Shown here in pieces: positions 56,630 through 64,000 of a DNA stretch of 64,000 bases. The notes beneath the pieces were generated by a model. That model made no database searches. It worked only from the letters and a program-made list of their open reading frames with translations, and was not told where the DNA came from. This DNA comes from Sediminispirochaeta bajacaliforniensis DSM 16054 (GTDB lineage: Bacteria > Spirochaetota > Spirochaetia > DSM-16054 > Sediminispirochaetaceae). Position numbers and translations under genes: made by a program. Numbering within the stretch: the first letter of the stretch is position 1; every line of letters begins with the position of its first letter. The stretch lies in assembly GCF_000378205.1 (NCBI RefSeq), contig NZ_KB899408.1:62001-126000 (forward strand), given 5' to 3'.

Positions 56630-56658
56630 TTGACGATTGACCAATCGGGAACTACACT
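56630..56658 (+). promoter_or_regulatory. Predicted promoter of the GAF kinase/alarmone synthetase pair
   Basis: TTGACG (56630-56635), 17-bp spacer, TACACT (56653-56658), 33 bp before the kinase start. Confidence 0.5.
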
Positions 56659-56691: not shown

Positions 56692-57879
56692 ATGAGAAAC
56701 CTTAATGATAAAAACTGTGGATCTGCTTATTCACGGTCGGATTTTTTTGCTTCGCTTGCGGTACGATATCTTCAATTTCCCTTAGGGGAGATCGACTATC
56801 GACAAGTAGGTCATGATCTTGTCTCTCTTTCAGGTGCTCAATCTGTCTTCCTCAATCTATATGTGGCAGATAAACATTGTATTGAAACCAAGGCCTTCGC
56901 TTCTTCCCTTGCAGAGGGTGCGGTGCCTTCTTGCGGCCCCTCTTTTGTCGGCCGATCTTGGCCTGTTGATGATGCGGCTGGTAAGATTTTTACATCCTCC
57001 GAGCTCATCCCTGTTAATGCCGAAACCGGTGGAGGGTCGGATACCATGGCACATAGTCTTTTTTCCCGTTTCGGGGAAGTCGGACTATGGGCTCTCGGCC
57101 TGTTCCATGATGGACGGTTTTTGGGGAATTTCTTCATGGTATTTGATGAAGGGAGGCAGAAACCGGATAGAAACGGTATCGGCACCTTTGCCGAGATTGT
57201 GGTTCACCTGCTGTTGCGAAAAGAGAGGGAGCGGCAATTGCAGCAGAACCTTACGGAGAAGGATCTGATCCTCAGGGAATCCCATCATCGCATTAAGAAT
57301 AATCTTTCGCTTATATCCAGCCTTGTCGCCTTGCAGGGAGAACTCCTTTCTCCTGAGCTGGCAGGCTTGCTGTATCCGATAATCAACAGGATCAATGCTA
57401 TTGTATTGATCCACGAGCAGCTCCACGAGGCGGGTAGCGATGGAAAACGGGTTTGTTTTGAAGCATATGTGAAACGTCTGGTGGGAGAGCTTGCCGATTC
57501 TTTTCGTTCTGACTACTCCGGAATAATGCTCTCACTTCTTCGTGCCGACCATGCCCTTTTTGAGGATGGGACCGCTATTCCCCTTGGCATTATTTTGACC
57601 GAGCTGGTAATGAACTCCTTTAAACACGCCTTTGAGGGCTTGTCTGGAGGACGAATAGATGTTTCTTTTATGTGTGAAGACCGGACCGCCCAATTGATTG
57701 TGCAAGACGATGGCAGGGGCATGGTCAGTTCGGAAATACCAAAACCGGACAGAGTAGGGGCCTCGCTCGGGCTTGTTTTGGTGGAATCCCTGACTGCTCA
57801 ACTTCAGGGGCACTGGGAACAATCGATGGGCGAGAACGGCAGAGGATTGAAGAATATCGTTGCTTTCCCTCTACCGTGA
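56692..57879 (+). CDS. Cytoplasmic GAF-type sensor histidine kinase, HisKA_2 (395 aa)
   Basis: Soluble kinase. Seen: a GAF-like sensory region (about 20-185), then the HisKA_2 box ESHHRIKNNLSLISSL (His near residue 199) as in the HWE/HisKA_2 kinases, and an ATPase domain with ILTELVMNSFKHAF, DDGRGM and a GASLGLVLVESL segment. No membrane helix, so the signal is internal. No response regulator gene follows; instead an alarmone synthetase gene starts 22 bp after it. The ribosome site at the ATG is weak. Confidence 0.9.
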   Translation: MRNLNDKNCGSAYSRSDFFASLAVRYLQFPLGEIDYRQVGHDLVSLSGAQSVFLNLYVADKHCIETKAFASSLAEGAVPSCGPSFVGRSWPVDDAAGKIFTSSELIPVNAETGGGSDTMAHSLFSRFGEVGLWALGLFHDGRFLGNFFMVFDEGRQKPDRNGIGTFAEIVVHLLLRKERERQLQQNLTEKDLILRESHHRIKNNLSLISSLVALQGELLSPELAGLLYPIINRINAIVLIHEQLHEAGSDGKRVCFEAYVKRLVGELADSFRSDYSGIMLSLLRADHALFEDGTAIPLGIILTELVMNSFKHAFEGLSGGRIDVSFMCEDRTAQLIVQDDGRGMVSSEIPKPDRVGASLGLVLVESLTAQLQGHWEQSMGENGRGLKNIVAFPLP

Positions 57880-57901
57880 CTCTACTTGGAGGTGCGCTTA
57901 T

Positions 57902-59098
57902 ATGGAGGTTCCGATTATTTATCCGGACAGGAAACGGCTTGAGGTCGCTTATAGAAAGAGATTGCCTTGTCTGGAACAAGAGCGTGAAGGCCTTGAATTA
58001 CAATTGAAAAACCTGCTTCAGACAGAAGAAATAAAAGCCACGGTAAAGGGCCGGATAAAGGCCTTCGACAGTTATTATGCAAAACTTCTTCGTAAACTCG
58101 CTTCGACGCCGGTGGAAAGCTTATCCGAGCAAGAGATTGATACGCTTATTCAGGACCTTGTCGGTGTTCGTATCTTAACACCTTTTCTTGAGTCTGTTAC
58201 GGATATAGAGCGGCTTGTACGTGGCCGTTTTTCAGTCTTTGAAGTTGAACGTAAAGGAGAGGAACAGAGCTTTTGTGAGTTTGGCTATCGTTCTATCCAT
58301 TTAAATATACGTCTTGATTCCGGACAGGTTTGTGAAATTCAGATACGAACGATCCTCCAGGATGCCTGGGCCGAGGTTGAGCATGAGCTGGTCTATAAAG
58401 GGAGCTTCAGTCCCTTCGATGAGCCGTTGAAACGTAAACTTGCAGCCCTCAATGCGACCCTGTCGCTTTCCGATATCATTTTCCAGGAGGTTCGCGATTA
58501 TCAAAGAAAGCTAAACAGGGAACTCAGGCATCGAAGGGAAACCTTCGAACGCCAGGTCAAAACAGAACTTTCCGGAACTTCTCCTCTAACGATGATGGAG
58601 AATCTTCCTTCCCATGAAAATATCGACGATTTAGACCAGTTGCTTTTACACGCTTTGCAGGTTCACAATAGTGGAGATTACGGCGGGGCCGTGGCTCTCT
58701 ATGGAAAGATCCTTGCCGGCCCCTTGTCTAAGGAGATCCGGGTTATAACCCTTATGCATCGCGGCATGGCCCGCTTCGCCGATGCCGACTACGCCGGGGC
58801 CGAAGAGGATTTTCTTGCGGCCCTCTCTTTGGAGGGACATAGGGGAAAAGCCCACTACTACCTTGGGATTTTATACCGGGTAACGGGTAGGCCCGGCCAA
58901 GCCCTTAAGGCATTTTCAACGGCTTTGGAGATAAATCCATACCACTTTGAATCGTTGCTGGGCTCGGCACGGGCTTTGTATGATCTTGGGGATACGGAAG
59001 AGGCTCTGAGTTGCTGCGATAACGCTTTAAGGCTTGTGCCTGATGACGAAGCTGCCCTCTTGTTGCGGCGGACTGTAGTCAGGAAACTTGGACTTTAA
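57902..59098 (+). CDS. (p)ppGpp synthetase-TPR fusion (398 aa)
   Basis: Small alarmone synthetase without the hydrolase (HD) domain, fused to tetratricopeptide repeats. Seen: synthetase (about 45-215) with KGRIKAFDSYYAKL, Asp85 in DLVGVRIL, FGYRSIH (127-133), EIQIRT (145-150) and AWAEVEHELVYK, all catalytic motifs being intact; then three to four TPR-like units (about 240-385; ALQVHNSGDYGGAVALYGKI, GKAHYYLGILYRVTGRPGQA, ESLLGSARALYDLGDTEEAL). The ATG at 57902 has GGAGGTG 7 nt upstream. No hydrolase is near. The TPR part probably binds a partner that tunes synthesis. The last 20 bp overlap the convergent gene. Confidence 0.9.
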   Translation: MEVPIIYPDRKRLEVAYRKRLPCLEQEREGLELQLKNLLQTEEIKATVKGRIKAFDSYYAKLLRKLASTPVESLSEQEIDTLIQDLVGVRILTPFLESVTDIERLVRGRFSVFEVERKGEEQSFCEFGYRSIHLNIRLDSGQVCEIQIRTILQDAWAEVEHELVYKGSFSPFDEPLKRKLAALNATLSLSDIIFQEVRDYQRKLNRELRHRRETFERQVKTELSGTSPLTMMENLPSHENIDDLDQLLLHALQVHNSGDYGGAVALYGKILAGPLSKEIRVITLMHRGMARFADADYAGAEEDFLAALSLEGHRGKAHYYLGILYRVTGRPGQALKAFSTALEINPYHFESLLGSARALYDLGDTEEALSCCDNALRLVPDDEAALLLRRTVVRKLGL

Positions 59099-59993
59099 CC
59101 TTGCTTTCGCTTTTCTCGTTGTTTTGGGTATCGGCAGCTGCGTTACGATCGTAGGTATAAAGGAAATTGAGCAGCACCTTGTCGACGGGGTTTTTTTCCC
59201 CCTCTTTTTCGAATCGGTTGTACAAAGCCAAGATGTAGTTCCGGATCTCCTCCGCTGCCCCGATACCGTTATCCGGTTTCGATAAAAGGTTGGTGATTAC
59301 CTTTCGGGCAAGTTCTGGAGAAACGCGGCTTTTGCCCGATGAGAGGACGAAAAGGCCTGCCGCCACACAGTTCACGCTGTGCTGTTTTAGAAAAAGGATG
59401 CTGTCGGTGATGGAGATTGCCTGTTCCCAAAGATAACGCTTTTCCTTCTCGTAGAGCGTCGGATCTTTGGCGTATCGATCGATAATGTCACAGATTTTGT
59501 GAAAATTGTAGCTCACAATCTCGACATGAAGGCTCGGAACGCAGAGAAGGTGAGGGTCGGAGAGATGTATCAGTCTGAAATAGAGACCGCCAACATGTTG
59601 CGGCCGGTCGGTGGTCGACATACAACGTCGATAGATCTTTGCGCTTTCGAGATAGAGTTCGCTGATCCCATCCACATAATCACTGATATCCTGGAGTACT
59701 ACTTCACCGAATTCCCGATAGAGAAAAAGAAGGGAACGTATCCAGAGATGGGTAAATGAAAGGTAGAGCTTTACCTGTTTTGGAGAAAAGGGGATCTTTC
59801 TATCCAGCGGGTGGTCGACGTTGACCACAGGGGTTTTGACCAACCGGAACTTTCTTGCAAACTGAGGCAGAAAAAAGTGGCGTACTATGACGTGTACGAC
59901 CCGAAAGGCGGCCTTGAAGCTTTTTTTTCGAGTCATGAAGATGAGGGCTCCCAAAACAGCAGGTTGCTTGCTGATACGGTTCGGAACATCCAT
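59079..59993 (-). CDS. Unrecognised protein in a radical SAM operon (304 aa)
   Basis: I do not recognise this protein. It is basic at the N-terminus, mainly helical in appearance, has aromatic-rich helices (LYLSFTHLWIRSLLFLY, residues about 77-93), the segment CVPSLHVEIVSYNFHK (about 155-170), which superficially recalls a PAP2-type PSxxH motif, and a charged C-terminal tail. No signal peptide or clear transmembrane helix. It starts 3 bp after the radical SAM gene with AGGA upstream, so it is in that operon and could be its substrate-binding partner or a modifying enzyme. Confidence 0.7.
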   Translation of the reverse strand: MDVPNRISKQPAVLGALIFMTRKKSFKAAFRVVHVIVRHFFLPQFARKFRLVKTPVVNVDHPLDRKIPFSPKQVKLYLSFTHLWIRSLLFLYREFGEVVLQDISDYVDGISELYLESAKIYRRCMSTTDRPQHVGGLYFRLIHLSDPHLLCVPSLHVEIVSYNFHKICDIIDRYAKDPTLYEKEKRYLWEQAISITDSILFLKQHSVNCVAAGLFVLSSGKSRVSPELARKVITNLLSKPDNGIGAAEEIRNYILALYNRFEKEGEKNPVDKVLLNFLYTYDRNAAADTQNNEKSESKVKVQVS

Positions 59994-59996
59994 GGC

Positions 59997-61190
59997 TTAG
60001 TATCCTATAATCTTTTTTCCAAAAAGCATATTTTGGTAGCAACGTACACACCCGGGCATCAACCCCTTTTCGCTTTCTTTCAAAACATGGCGAAATTTTC
60101 TTGCCCGTTCGTTATTGTAGATCTGATAAAAGGAATCTTCCTCCATGATATTTCCAAGGACGTAGTCGGGATAGTCGCTGCAGAAATAGACATCGCCGTT
60201 GTAATCTATATTTCCCTGGAACCAGGGAATGGCGCATTGGTCCCTGACCGGCTGCTCGAGTTGTGAATAGTAGGTGCCGATTTTTTCCGGCTTGATTGCA
60301 GGGACCGTGATGATGGGGTAGCCATTTTTCATCGAATGGACCTTCTTCAGTACCTCTGCAAAGCGCTCTCCATCGATCCCTTCGTTGTATCCGTTGGCAA
60401 AGCCCTCCAGGCAATGGATATCGGTATCAAGCTTCTCTTTCACAAAACGCTTATGCTGTCCGATGATGTTGCTATTTGTGTATGTTCCGAGATTGATGAT
60501 ATGCCATGCGATCCCGAAATCCCTTGCCGCTTCGGCCAGTTTGTCGAGGTATTGGTAGTTAAGCCGGCTGATGGTGGTGACGATGCCCATGTAGGGGCGA
60601 TTGCTTCCTTGTAACTTTTTTTGCTTGTTGATTTCTGCAAAACCTTCAACGACCCTTTTGTAGGAACCGGACCCACGAATCGTGTCGTTGATATCTTCAA
60701 AGCCGTCGAGACTGACGAAAAGTGCGTGCCACCTGTCCCTGACGATCTGCTCGGCTCGTGCCTTCAGAAAGGTTCCGTTGGTATTGACGCTTAAAAGATT
60801 TCCTTTCTCAACGACATACCTGCCGAACTCCATGATATCCGGATAGATAAATGGCTCACCACCCCAGACATAAAAAAGCGGCTTATGAGGGGATACCTCA
60901 TCGATAAGCCGCTTATAGCGCTCGATCGGGACCAGCTTTTTTGCCTCTTGGATCGCGTAATCACCTTTCAAAACACCGGCTTCTCCACGTTGATTACACA
61001 TAACGCAACGCAGATTACAGAGAGGGGTGATCCGAAAGGTCAGGAGACTCATCTCGTTACTGGTTTCGGGATGAAATCTTCGGTCGACTATTGCAGCCTT
61101 TTTCTTCCTGCCGAAACCGCTGACAAGCAGTTTTGCCATATCCGGATCTTTCAGCAGTACCTCCGGCACAACCGAGAAGTTATGTTTCAT
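59997..61190 (-). CDS. Radical SAM protein with SPASM-like domain (397 aa)
   Basis: Radical S-adenosylmethionine enzyme. Seen: the 4Fe-4S triad CNLRCVMC near residue 63 (C-x3-C-x2-C), the glycine motif YVWGGEPFIYPD (about 112) and SVNTNGTF; then a C-terminal extension with cysteines (CAIPW, VYFCSDYPD, PGCVRCYQN) like SPASM/twitch domains that hold auxiliary clusters. Such enzymes modify peptides, sugars or enzymes. Start ATG 61190 with AAGGAA 7 nt upstream. It lies 4 bp after the short-chain dehydrogenase gene, in a three-gene operon. Confidence 0.92.
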   Translation of the reverse strand: MKHNFSVVPEVLLKDPDMAKLLVSGFGRKKKAAIVDRRFHPETSNEMSLLTFRITPLCNLRCVMCNQRGEAGVLKGDYAIQEAKKLVPIERYKRLIDEVSPHKPLFYVWGGEPFIYPDIMEFGRYVVEKGNLLSVNTNGTFLKARAEQIVRDRWHALFVSLDGFEDINDTIRGSGSYKRVVEGFAEINKQKKLQGSNRPYMGIVTTISRLNYQYLDKLAEAARDFGIAWHIINLGTYTNSNIIGQHKRFVKEKLDTDIHCLEGFANGYNEGIDGERFAEVLKKVHSMKNGYPIITVPAIKPEKIGTYYSQLEQPVRDQCAIPWFQGNIDYNGDVYFCSDYPDYVLGNIMEEDSFYQIYNNERARKFRHVLKESEKGLMPGCVRCYQNMLFGKKIIGY

Positions 61191-61194
61191 GATG

Positions 61195-62019
61195 CTATTC
61201 CTTTTTGCCGGTAAGGCCCATAACTGAAATTCGCATAATTGTCGCAAGAAAGGTGTCGGAGAGCAATGCCCCGAAGAATGCCGAAATTTGGTTGCCGAAG
61301 CCAGGTATCACCCTTGCCTTTCCGGCAAGCAGCGCCCTGACCGCCGAGCGCGCAACTCGGTCGGCAGACATCCCCTTCCGAAATGAAAAGCTGCGGTACT
61401 TCTGGCTTTCGATTCCGGCAGCTACATCGAATCCTGTTCGTATGAATCCCGGCTCCAGCAAGGTGACGGAAACTCCGCTGCCGTATAACTCCGCCCGCAA
61501 GGCAAGAGTAAAGGTGTGAACAAAGCTTTTTGTCGCACCATAGCCGGCGAAAAAGGGCATCGGCTGTCCTCCCGCAAGGGAGCCGACATTCAGGACGTTT
61601 CCCTTTCCTCTATCCGTTAGCATCGGTACAAAAAGCCGACACATGTTTGCTAGGGACTCTATATTCAATTTGATCATTGCGGCGAGGTCGTCTTTGTTTT
61701 GTTTGATCACAGGACCAAAAAGCCCTCTTCCCGCATTGTTTACCAATATCTCCAGCGGCGTATCTTCCTCGGTACAGAGGGCGGAAACCTCTTCGGCAAG
61801 CCGTTCTATTGCCCCCTCTTCGACGAGATCGCAAGGTATGATCTTAACCTTCGGAGCGCCGCATGTAAGGCACTCTTGTGCCCCTGAAGCAAGAACCTCT
61901 TTCCTTCGTCCGCAGAGAATAAGAGGATAGGATCGGGCAGCCAGCAATTTTGCCATTTCCAGACCAAGCCCGGACCCCCCTCCTGTTATTAAGGCGTATC
62001 CTTTTTGGGTGCTTTCCAT
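61195..62019 (-). CDS. Short-chain dehydrogenase/reductase (274 aa)
   Basis: NAD(P)-dependent oxidoreductase of the SDR family. Seen: the cofactor motif TGGGSGLG, LVNNAGRG, catalytic Ser in NVGSLAGGQ, YGATK (Tyr and Lys) and the PGFIRTGF segment; the C-terminus is extended and hydrophobic (FGNQISAFFGALL, then MRISVMGL), a trait of lipid- or membrane-associated SDRs. The ATG at 62019 was chosen at the start of the Rossmann fold; no clear ribosome site is seen. First gene of an operon with the radical SAM protein. Confidence 0.9.
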   Translation of the reverse strand: MESTQKGYALITGGGSGLGLEMAKLLAARSYPLILCGRRKEVLASGAQECLTCGAPKVKIIPCDLVEEGAIERLAEEVSALCTEEDTPLEILVNNAGRGLFGPVIKQNKDDLAAMIKLNIESLANMCRLFVPMLTDRGKGNVLNVGSLAGGQPMPFFAGYGATKSFVHTFTLALRAELYGSGVSVTLLEPGFIRTGFDVAAGIESQKYRSFSFRKGMSADRVARSAVRALLAGKARVIPGFGNQISAFFGALLSDTFLATIMRISVMGLTGKKE

Positions 62020-62119
62020 GAAGAGAATATACGATCTGAGGCCGGAATAAACAAGGGCGCCGGTTACTATCAATATGATATTCTTGTTGTTTTGTGGCTT
62101 TGACAATACAATGGGTGCA

Positions 62120-63346
62120 ATGCATGAAAAAAAGATGGGGCGTGAAAGGCTATTTGCGATTTTTCTCATTGGTGTTTCTCTTTTATCGCATATGGGTGCC
62201 GGCCTTTTTTTCGGGGTCCAGGAGCAACATGTTGACTACCTGCGGATTCACTGGCACCTTTCCTTTTATCTCCTTCTTGCCGCTTCTGCCCTGCTTTCAA
62301 TCCTTATCAATCTAAAAATCGATAGTGGGAAAAAACAGGTTATTCTTCTTATTGACGTCTTGCTTTTTTTTCTTATCGGATACCCTCTGGGGCCTCATCT
62401 CGATATCGAAATTATTCTTGGGATTAATCTCATTACCATCTTGGTTTTTTCCTTTTCAGATCTTTACGGAGAGAAGATCGCCCTGATCATCATTGTCGTT
62501 ACCTTAATGCTTCAGGCTCCATACAGCCTCTGGTTTACACAGGTACCGGCCCCTTCGATGGAGAATATGATTTTCGCCGCCTTTATCCTCGTCGTCTTCA
62601 CCCTGTTTTTGTCGATTTTGAAGCGTGTGATGAACCGTCTGCATTATGAGGAGATCCGCAGCAGAAAGTACAACAGGGCCCTCGACGAACTGACGAACAA
62701 CTCTTTCGACTATCAGCATATCTCACGGCAGAACGCCATGGAACTGATTCAGATCGAAAAGCAATATATCACCAGGGAAGTTCATGATATCATCAGCTAC
62801 GCAATGACAAATCAGCTCATGTTGGTGCAGGCGGCCATGAGCATCAAGGATAAGAATTCTCCTGTGGTCGACGAATTACTGGAGAAGGCCAAGAATGAGA
62901 TCAACGGTGGAATGTCGAAGACCAGGGCTGCCTTGGGTGAACTTCGGGATCAGGAGTTTGATCAGGAAGATGTCAATCTCCTTGTCGAGCAACTGATTGC
63001 CAAGTTCAAGAATTTTTCGCATATCGATGTCCAGTTTAGGAAGGATGAGTTTTTTTCCCGCTTGCCCAGAAGTTATAATCAGACCATCTTTCATATCATT
63101 CAGCAGTGTATGACCAACACCTATCTTCACAGCAGTGCAGATGCAATAGAGATCCTTTGTGAACATGAGGGCAGATGTGTGGTTGTGGTGGTCAAGGACA
63201 ATGGCACCAATAGCCGGGGCTTCCGTGAAGGGATCGGTATCAAGGGTATGCGGGAACGGATCGAGATGTTTGGCGGTGTGCTGAAAATTTCTGCCTTAAG
63301 CCTGGGCTTTACCGTACGTGCCGAGATTCCCATAACAGAGGATTGA
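62120..63346 (+). CDS. Membrane sensor histidine kinase, LiaS/DesK-type (408 aa)
   Basis: Seen: about six to seven hydrophobic helices in the first 190 residues (for example LFAIFLIGVSLLSHMG, LLIDVLLFFLIGYPLG, MIFAAFILVVFTLFL), then a HisKA_3 box ITREVHDIISYAMTNQ with the phospho-acceptor His, and an ATPase domain containing IIQQCMTNTYLHS, DNGTNSRG and GIKGMRERIEMFGG. The membrane sensor lacks a large outside domain, as in DesK/LiaS-type kinases. ATG at 62120 is a choice among several in-frame ATGs (62111, 62135). A response regulator follows 5 bp later. Confidence 0.88.
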   Translation: MHEKKMGRERLFAIFLIGVSLLSHMGAGLFFGVQEQHVDYLRIHWHLSFYLLLAASALLSILINLKIDSGKKQVILLIDVLLFFLIGYPLGPHLDIEIILGINLITILVFSFSDLYGEKIALIIIVVTLMLQAPYSLWFTQVPAPSMENMIFAAFILVVFTLFLSILKRVMNRLHYEEIRSRKYNRALDELTNNSFDYQHISRQNAMELIQIEKQYITREVHDIISYAMTNQLMLVQAAMSIKDKNSPVVDELLEKAKNEINGGMSKTRAALGELRDQEFDQEDVNLLVEQLIAKFKNFSHIDVQFRKDEFFSRLPRSYNQTIFHIIQQCMTNTYLHSSADAIEILCEHEGRCVVVVVKDNGTNSRGFREGIGIKGMRERIEMFGGVLKISALSLGFTVRAEIPITED

Positions 63347-63351
63347 TAGTT

Positions 63352-64000
63352 GTGGATAAGGTAAGCGTTTTGTTGGTTGACGATCAGCTCCTTTTTCTGG
63401 AAAGTCTTAAAATCGTTCTGGAGAACCTTTCTGAAGAGATCGAGGTGTGCGGCCTTGCTTCTTCCGGCCTCGAAGCGATCAGCTTGGCGGCAACGTGTCG
63501 ACCCGATGTTATTTTGATGGATGTGAGCATGCCTGAGATGGACGGAATCGAAGCATCGGCGAGAATTAAGGCCGAGCGGCCCGATGTCAACATCATCATG
63601 CTGACCACCTTCGAGGAGAAGGATAAGGTCCAGGAAGCCATCAAGCTGGGGATAAACGGCTATCTGCTCAAGAATCTTAAACCCGAATTGCTTATCCAGT
63701 ATATCCTGCTCTCGGCTGAGGGCGGTGTTTTCCTTTCGACCGAGGTGGCGGACCGCTTATGCCGCCAGGGTGGGGATGAAAAGGCCGAGGATGAGCAAGC
63801 GGAACGCTGCCTGGATGAAGATGATAGTTCCTACAAGTTCCTCACGAGGCGGGAAAAAGAGGTGCTGAAATACCTTGCCATGGATATGACAAACATGGAG
63901 ATCGCCGAAAAAATCCATGTAGGCTATCAGACAATACGTAATTATATCAGCGTGATTTATTCTAAGCTGAACGTGTCGAATCGGATGGAAGTAATCAAGA
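63352..64000 (+). CDS. NarL/LuxR-type response regulator (C-terminus cut by window edge)
   Basis: 216 codons are present. Seen: receiver with the acidic pair DD in LLVDDQ, Asp in VILMDVSMPEMDG, Lys in GYLLKNLKPE; a glutamate/aspartate-rich linker (DEKAEDEQAERCLDEDD); and a LuxR-type domain FLTRREKEVLKYLAMDMTN and YQTIRNYISVIYSKLNVSN running to the edge. GTG start at 63352 with GAGG upstream. It is partner of the preceding kinase. Confidence 0.93.
   Translation, partial: MDKVSVLLVDDQLLFLESLKIVLENLSEEIEVCGLASSGLEAISLAATCRPDVILMDVSMPEMDGIEASARIKAERPDVNIIMLTTFEEKDKVQEAIKLGINGYLLKNLKPELLIQYILLSAEGGVFLSTEVADRLCRQGGDEKAEDEQAERCLDEDDSSYKFLTRREKEVLKYLAMDMTNMEIAEKIHVGYQTIRNYISVIYSKLNVSNRMEVIK

Follow-up and report, generated by a model that had tools for sequence, protein, structure and literature searches.

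The kinase and synthetase genes described here, from Sediminispirochaeta bajacaliforniensis DSM 16054, are best explained as a small alarmone synthetase that carries its own TPR brake (SAS-TPR) and a genus-specific, probably co-transcribed kinase neighbor, without invoking direct control of one by the other (probability about 0.8). The N-terminal domain of the synthetase would transfer pyrophosphate from ATP to GDP or GTP and, by extension from TDE1711 of Treponema denticola, the C-terminal TPR domain would restrain the synthetase within the same protein. The enzyme would act alongside a single long bifunctional RSH, the sole protein of this genome in which an HD_4 alarmone hydrolase domain was detected. 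The kinase, probably encoded on the synthetase transcript, more likely passes its signal to a response regulator whose gene lies elsewhere. Direct control by the kinase through the TPR part, as suggested by the initial annotation, is not needed to explain anything that we observed.

Locus organization and predicted transcript

The window analyzed is a stretch of 64,000 nucleotides from contig NZ_KB899408.1. Both open reading frames lie on the plus strand, with the kinase gene at 56692–57879 (395 aa) and the synthetase gene at 57902–59098 (398 aa). The synthetase start was assigned to the ATG at 57902, which follows, by about 9 bases, a GGAGG that is kept in the second Sediminispirochaeta species. 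A longer synthetase frame beginning at TTG 57860 is unlikely given the conserved GGAGG ahead of ATG 57902. With this start the gap between the genes is 22 bp, as originally annotated, and the junction is also conserved in the second species.

A promoter-like site (TTGACG, 17 nt, TACACT; 56630–56658, plus strand) precedes the kinase gene and is nearly unchanged in the second Sediminispirochaeta species. It was recognized by consensus match, and such sites are only slightly more frequent than chance in the stretch (5 found versus 3.5 expected). The same consensus search found no promoter-like site in the 22-bp gap. A site ahead of the kinase and none between the genes suggest that the two genes probably share one transcript, with 56630–56658 as its candidate promoter. 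Since the kinase probably shares this transcript, the promoter before it may set synthetase expression in Sediminispirochaeta.

Upstream of the kinase lies a tRNA-Met gene on the opposite strand. The end of the synthetase gene is overlapped by 20 bp by a minus-strand gene (59079–59993) for a 304-aa protein without a Pfam match, which is adjoined by a minus-strand radical SAM/SPASM protein gene (59997–61247); both genes are kept in the second Sediminispirochaeta species.

The synthetase is a probable member of the DsRel/SAS-TPR family

The protein was annotated as a (p)ppGpp synthetase without a hydrolase domain and with fused TPR repeats, and the domain searches bear this out. Pfam places RelA_SpoT at residues 50–167 (1.1e-19) and TPR families over residues ~280–388, and finds neither an HD hydrolase domain nor a receiver domain in the protein. 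From Pfam, alignment and model together, the synthetase domain and its following helices span residues ~1–230 (57902–58591), and the TPR domain spans residues ~241–398 (58622–59095). The AlphaFold model is confident for the TPR domain and less even for the catalytic half; in Foldseek searches the catalytic half matched B. subtilis SAS1 and the other half matched TPR proteins. A C-terminal TPR domain of ~180 aa characterizes DsRel (SAS-TPR) proteins, and Pfam, AlphaFold and Foldseek all find such a domain here.

The claim of complete catalytic motifs was likewise confirmed. In an alignment with RelQ, RelP and 3l9d the motifs are in place, and many of their positions are invariant among 35 synthetase relatives. 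Synthetase fold and motifs are common to this protein and to RelQ/RelP (B. subtilis SAS1/YjbM and YwaC), but sequence similarity to these enzymes is modest (E about 1e-12) and, unlike the protein here, they have no TPR domain.

The first DsRel protein studied was TDE1711 (Tde-SAS) of T. denticola (Wang et al. 2023; PMC10434055). Purified TDE1711 is a homotetramer that prefers GDP, and its TPR domain is an intramolecular brake, the removal of which raises the catalytic efficiency of ppGpp formation ~18-fold (PMC10434055). Like TDE1711, the synthetase described here comes from a spirochete, is ~400 aa long, lacks a hydrolase domain, and joins an N-terminal SAS domain that has every synthesis motif to a TPR domain at the C-terminus. 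Membership in DsRel/SAS-TPR, assigned by architecture and length, is strongly supported. Full-length homologs are treponeme and other spirochete proteins; identity outside the genus is only ~40–48%, which counts against simply carrying the TDE1711 brake over to this protein. Relatives occur in 141 of the 393 sampled Spirochaetota genomes (E ≤ 1e-40), as well as in genomes labeled Chitinispirillia and Fibrobacter. The fusion of a synthetase to TPR repeats is therefore not new, having already been described and assayed.

Besides the kinase gene upstream, two features set the Sediminispirochaeta system apart from TDE1711. While T. denticola has no long RSH (PMC10434055), the genome here also encodes one, a 670-aa frame that combines HD_4 with a synthetase domain; no further HD_4 match was found in the genome. 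Additionally, the stretch between FGYxSxH (FGYRSIH here) and EIQIRT is 11 residues long in both Sediminispirochaeta synthetases (58313–58345, residues ~134–149), compared with 21 residues in 88 of the 103 loci with both motifs matched. Apart from the two Sediminispirochaeta proteins, none of these loci has a stretch below 19 residues. The 10-residue-shorter loop thus appears specific to the genus, distinguishing its synthetases from TDE1711 and other DsRel proteins, and it may affect which substrates are used or how the enzyme is controlled, so that regulation of this synthetase could differ from that of its relatives.

Synthetases can also act as toxins, and some of these toxSAS enzymes are neutralized by a fused domain. 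If the protein here were a toxic small alarmone synthetase, its TPR part or the upstream gene would be the antidote. The synthetase part does give a weak PADLOC match (PDC-S33, 2.9e-10), and neutralization by a fused domain would suit the architecture. Against this, relatives of the gene occur in 141 of the 393 Spirochaetota genomes, the gene is under purifying selection, and the top-scoring synthetase profile was that of YjbM, an ordinary GTP diphosphokinase, with a score far under the profile cut-off. Furthermore, TDE1711 makes ppGpp and restores growth of ppGpp-deficient E. coli (PMC10434055). We consider a toxic role very improbable.

The TPR domain is constrained irrespective of the kinase

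Within the first two TPR repeats, H286-R287-G288 is invariant among 35 relatives and several other positions are kept, while the linker is poorly conserved. In a comparison limited to the two Sediminispirochaeta species, dN/dS was 0.15 for the synthetase and 0.16 for its TPR part, versus 0.23 for the catalytic part of the kinase and 0.74 for its sensor part. Judged from these alignments, the TPR domain is constrained irrespective of the kinase. Because the TPR part is constrained in relatives without such a kinase, its main role cannot depend on one. By analogy with TDE1711 (PMC10434055), the TPR part probably controls synthetase activity, and this portion of the signaling pair initially proposed is retained.

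An orphan HisKA_2 kinase with a genus-specific sensor region

HisKA_2 (1.6e-16) and HATPase_c both pass their Pfam cut-offs in the 395-aa soluble kinase. Its key residues are present, including the phospho-acceptor His of the HisKA_2 dimerization domain. The HisKA_2 portion of the initial GAF/HisKA_2 label therefore holds, while the GAF portion lacks Pfam support: the N-terminal 183 residues gave no Pfam match. A low-confidence model of the sensor region (~175 aa; 56692–57216) shows an order of elements compatible with GAF; since the model is poor in that region, GAF is only a possible assignment. The soluble HisKA_2 kinases EL346 (PDB 4r39) and PhyK share HisKA_2 and HATPase_c with this protein but differ in the N-terminal sensor region, which here is limited to Sediminispirochaeta. 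When the kinase alignment was used for a profile search of the PDB, coverage was limited to the catalytic part. Among 393 Spirochaetota genomes, the only full-length relative of the kinase is in the second Sediminispirochaeta species (88% identity), and the next best match covers residues 146–394 at 38%. As the kinase is found only in this genus, a kinase-enzyme pair is left without support beyond the probable shared transcript.

As annotated, no response regulator lies beside the kinase. The receiver domain nearest to the pair is ~6 kb downstream, next to its own HisKA_3 kinase. This HisKA_3 kinase and the response regulator that follows it (62075–64000) form an ordinary two-component pair that runs off the end of the window. 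With 29 HisKA_2 matches in the genome, one HisKA_2 neighbor is not striking in itself. No receiver domain was found within 3 kb of 17 of the 27 clear HisKA_2 kinases, an approximate count because some lie near contig ends. An orphan HisKA_2 kinase is nothing unusual here.

Kinase-synthetase linkage is not conserved outside the genus

Gene order was compared across 110 loci in which the SAS-TPR gene could be read, representing 103 distinct proteins, using a profile of 30 HisKA_2 kinases together with kinase ATPase motifs to search the neighboring genes. A kinase immediately precedes the synthetase at only two of the 110 loci, both from Sediminispirochaeta. Kinase ATPase motifs occur within four genes of the synthetase at four further loci, at none of them adjacent to it. 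The gene following the synthetase of one distant relative (L178) looked like a PAS-sensor protein, but at the sequence level it resembles a sigma-54-type activator rather than a kinase. Linkage of the kinase to the synthetase is therefore not conserved outside the genus, contrary to what the proposed pairing would lead one to expect. Its retention in the two species is uninformative, since the compared neighbors from −2 to +4 are equally collinear between them (88–97% identity).

The synthetase here is preceded by a kinase gene, whereas its DsRel relatives have flaA or other neighbors. The SAS-TPR gene follows flaA (PF04620), the gene for a flagellar sheath protein, at ~36–41 of the first 91 loci, many of them from treponemes or treponeme-like spirochetes (e.g. 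L012, L015 and L037), and the order amidase, small protein, flaA recurs upstream. We did not adopt a flaA operon as the context of the synthetase: the two genes often adjoin in treponemes, but a strong terminator-like hairpin sits in most of the gaps between them, so that adjacency does not establish cotranscription with flaA. The TDE1711 paper does not mention flaA (PMC10434055).

These results bear on the proposal that the two proteins form a direct signaling pair, in which the kinase, by binding or phosphotransfer, would loosen or tighten the TPR brake and thereby determine (p)ppGpp levels. The 22-bp gap, probable shared transcript and retention of both genes in two species are in its favor, as are the absence of a response regulator near the kinase, the braking role of the TPR domain in the T. 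denticola relative (PMC10434055) and the coincidence of a genus-specific shortened loop with a genus-specific kinase. However, the kinase is missing beside the synthetase at every other locus examined, the equal collinearity of neighboring genes deprives the linkage of weight, the synthetase has no receiver domain, and constraint on the TPR part is present where the kinase is absent. We regard a direct pair as unlikely, and it is equally doubtful that Sediminispirochaeta recruited a lineage-specific sensor kinase to release or tighten the SAS-TPR brake.

A further reading is that the genes only share a transcript or are neighbors by chance, with the kinase acting on an unrelated response regulator and affecting alarmones only via co-expression. 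The many HisKA_2 matches in the genome, most of them orphans, and the restriction of the linkage to one genus fit this reading, while, given the tight gap and the promoter-like site ahead of the kinase, co-expression is more likely than pure chance. We give it about even odds; it largely overlaps with the preferred explanation of a self-braked synthetase and a co-transcribed neighbor, which likewise retains co-expression but dispenses with direct control.

Implications for SAS-TPR regulation

We did not come across any published account of what releases the TPR brake in SAS-TPR synthetases. Were the kinase to act directly after all, it would represent an input to (p)ppGpp synthesis absent from other SAS-TPR proteins. 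The present result narrows the search for brake release: conservation of the TPR surface at loci that have no kinase makes it unlikely that a neighboring kinase generally plays this part. For mutational work on any SAS-TPR protein, the invariant His-Arg-Gly motif is a well-defined target.
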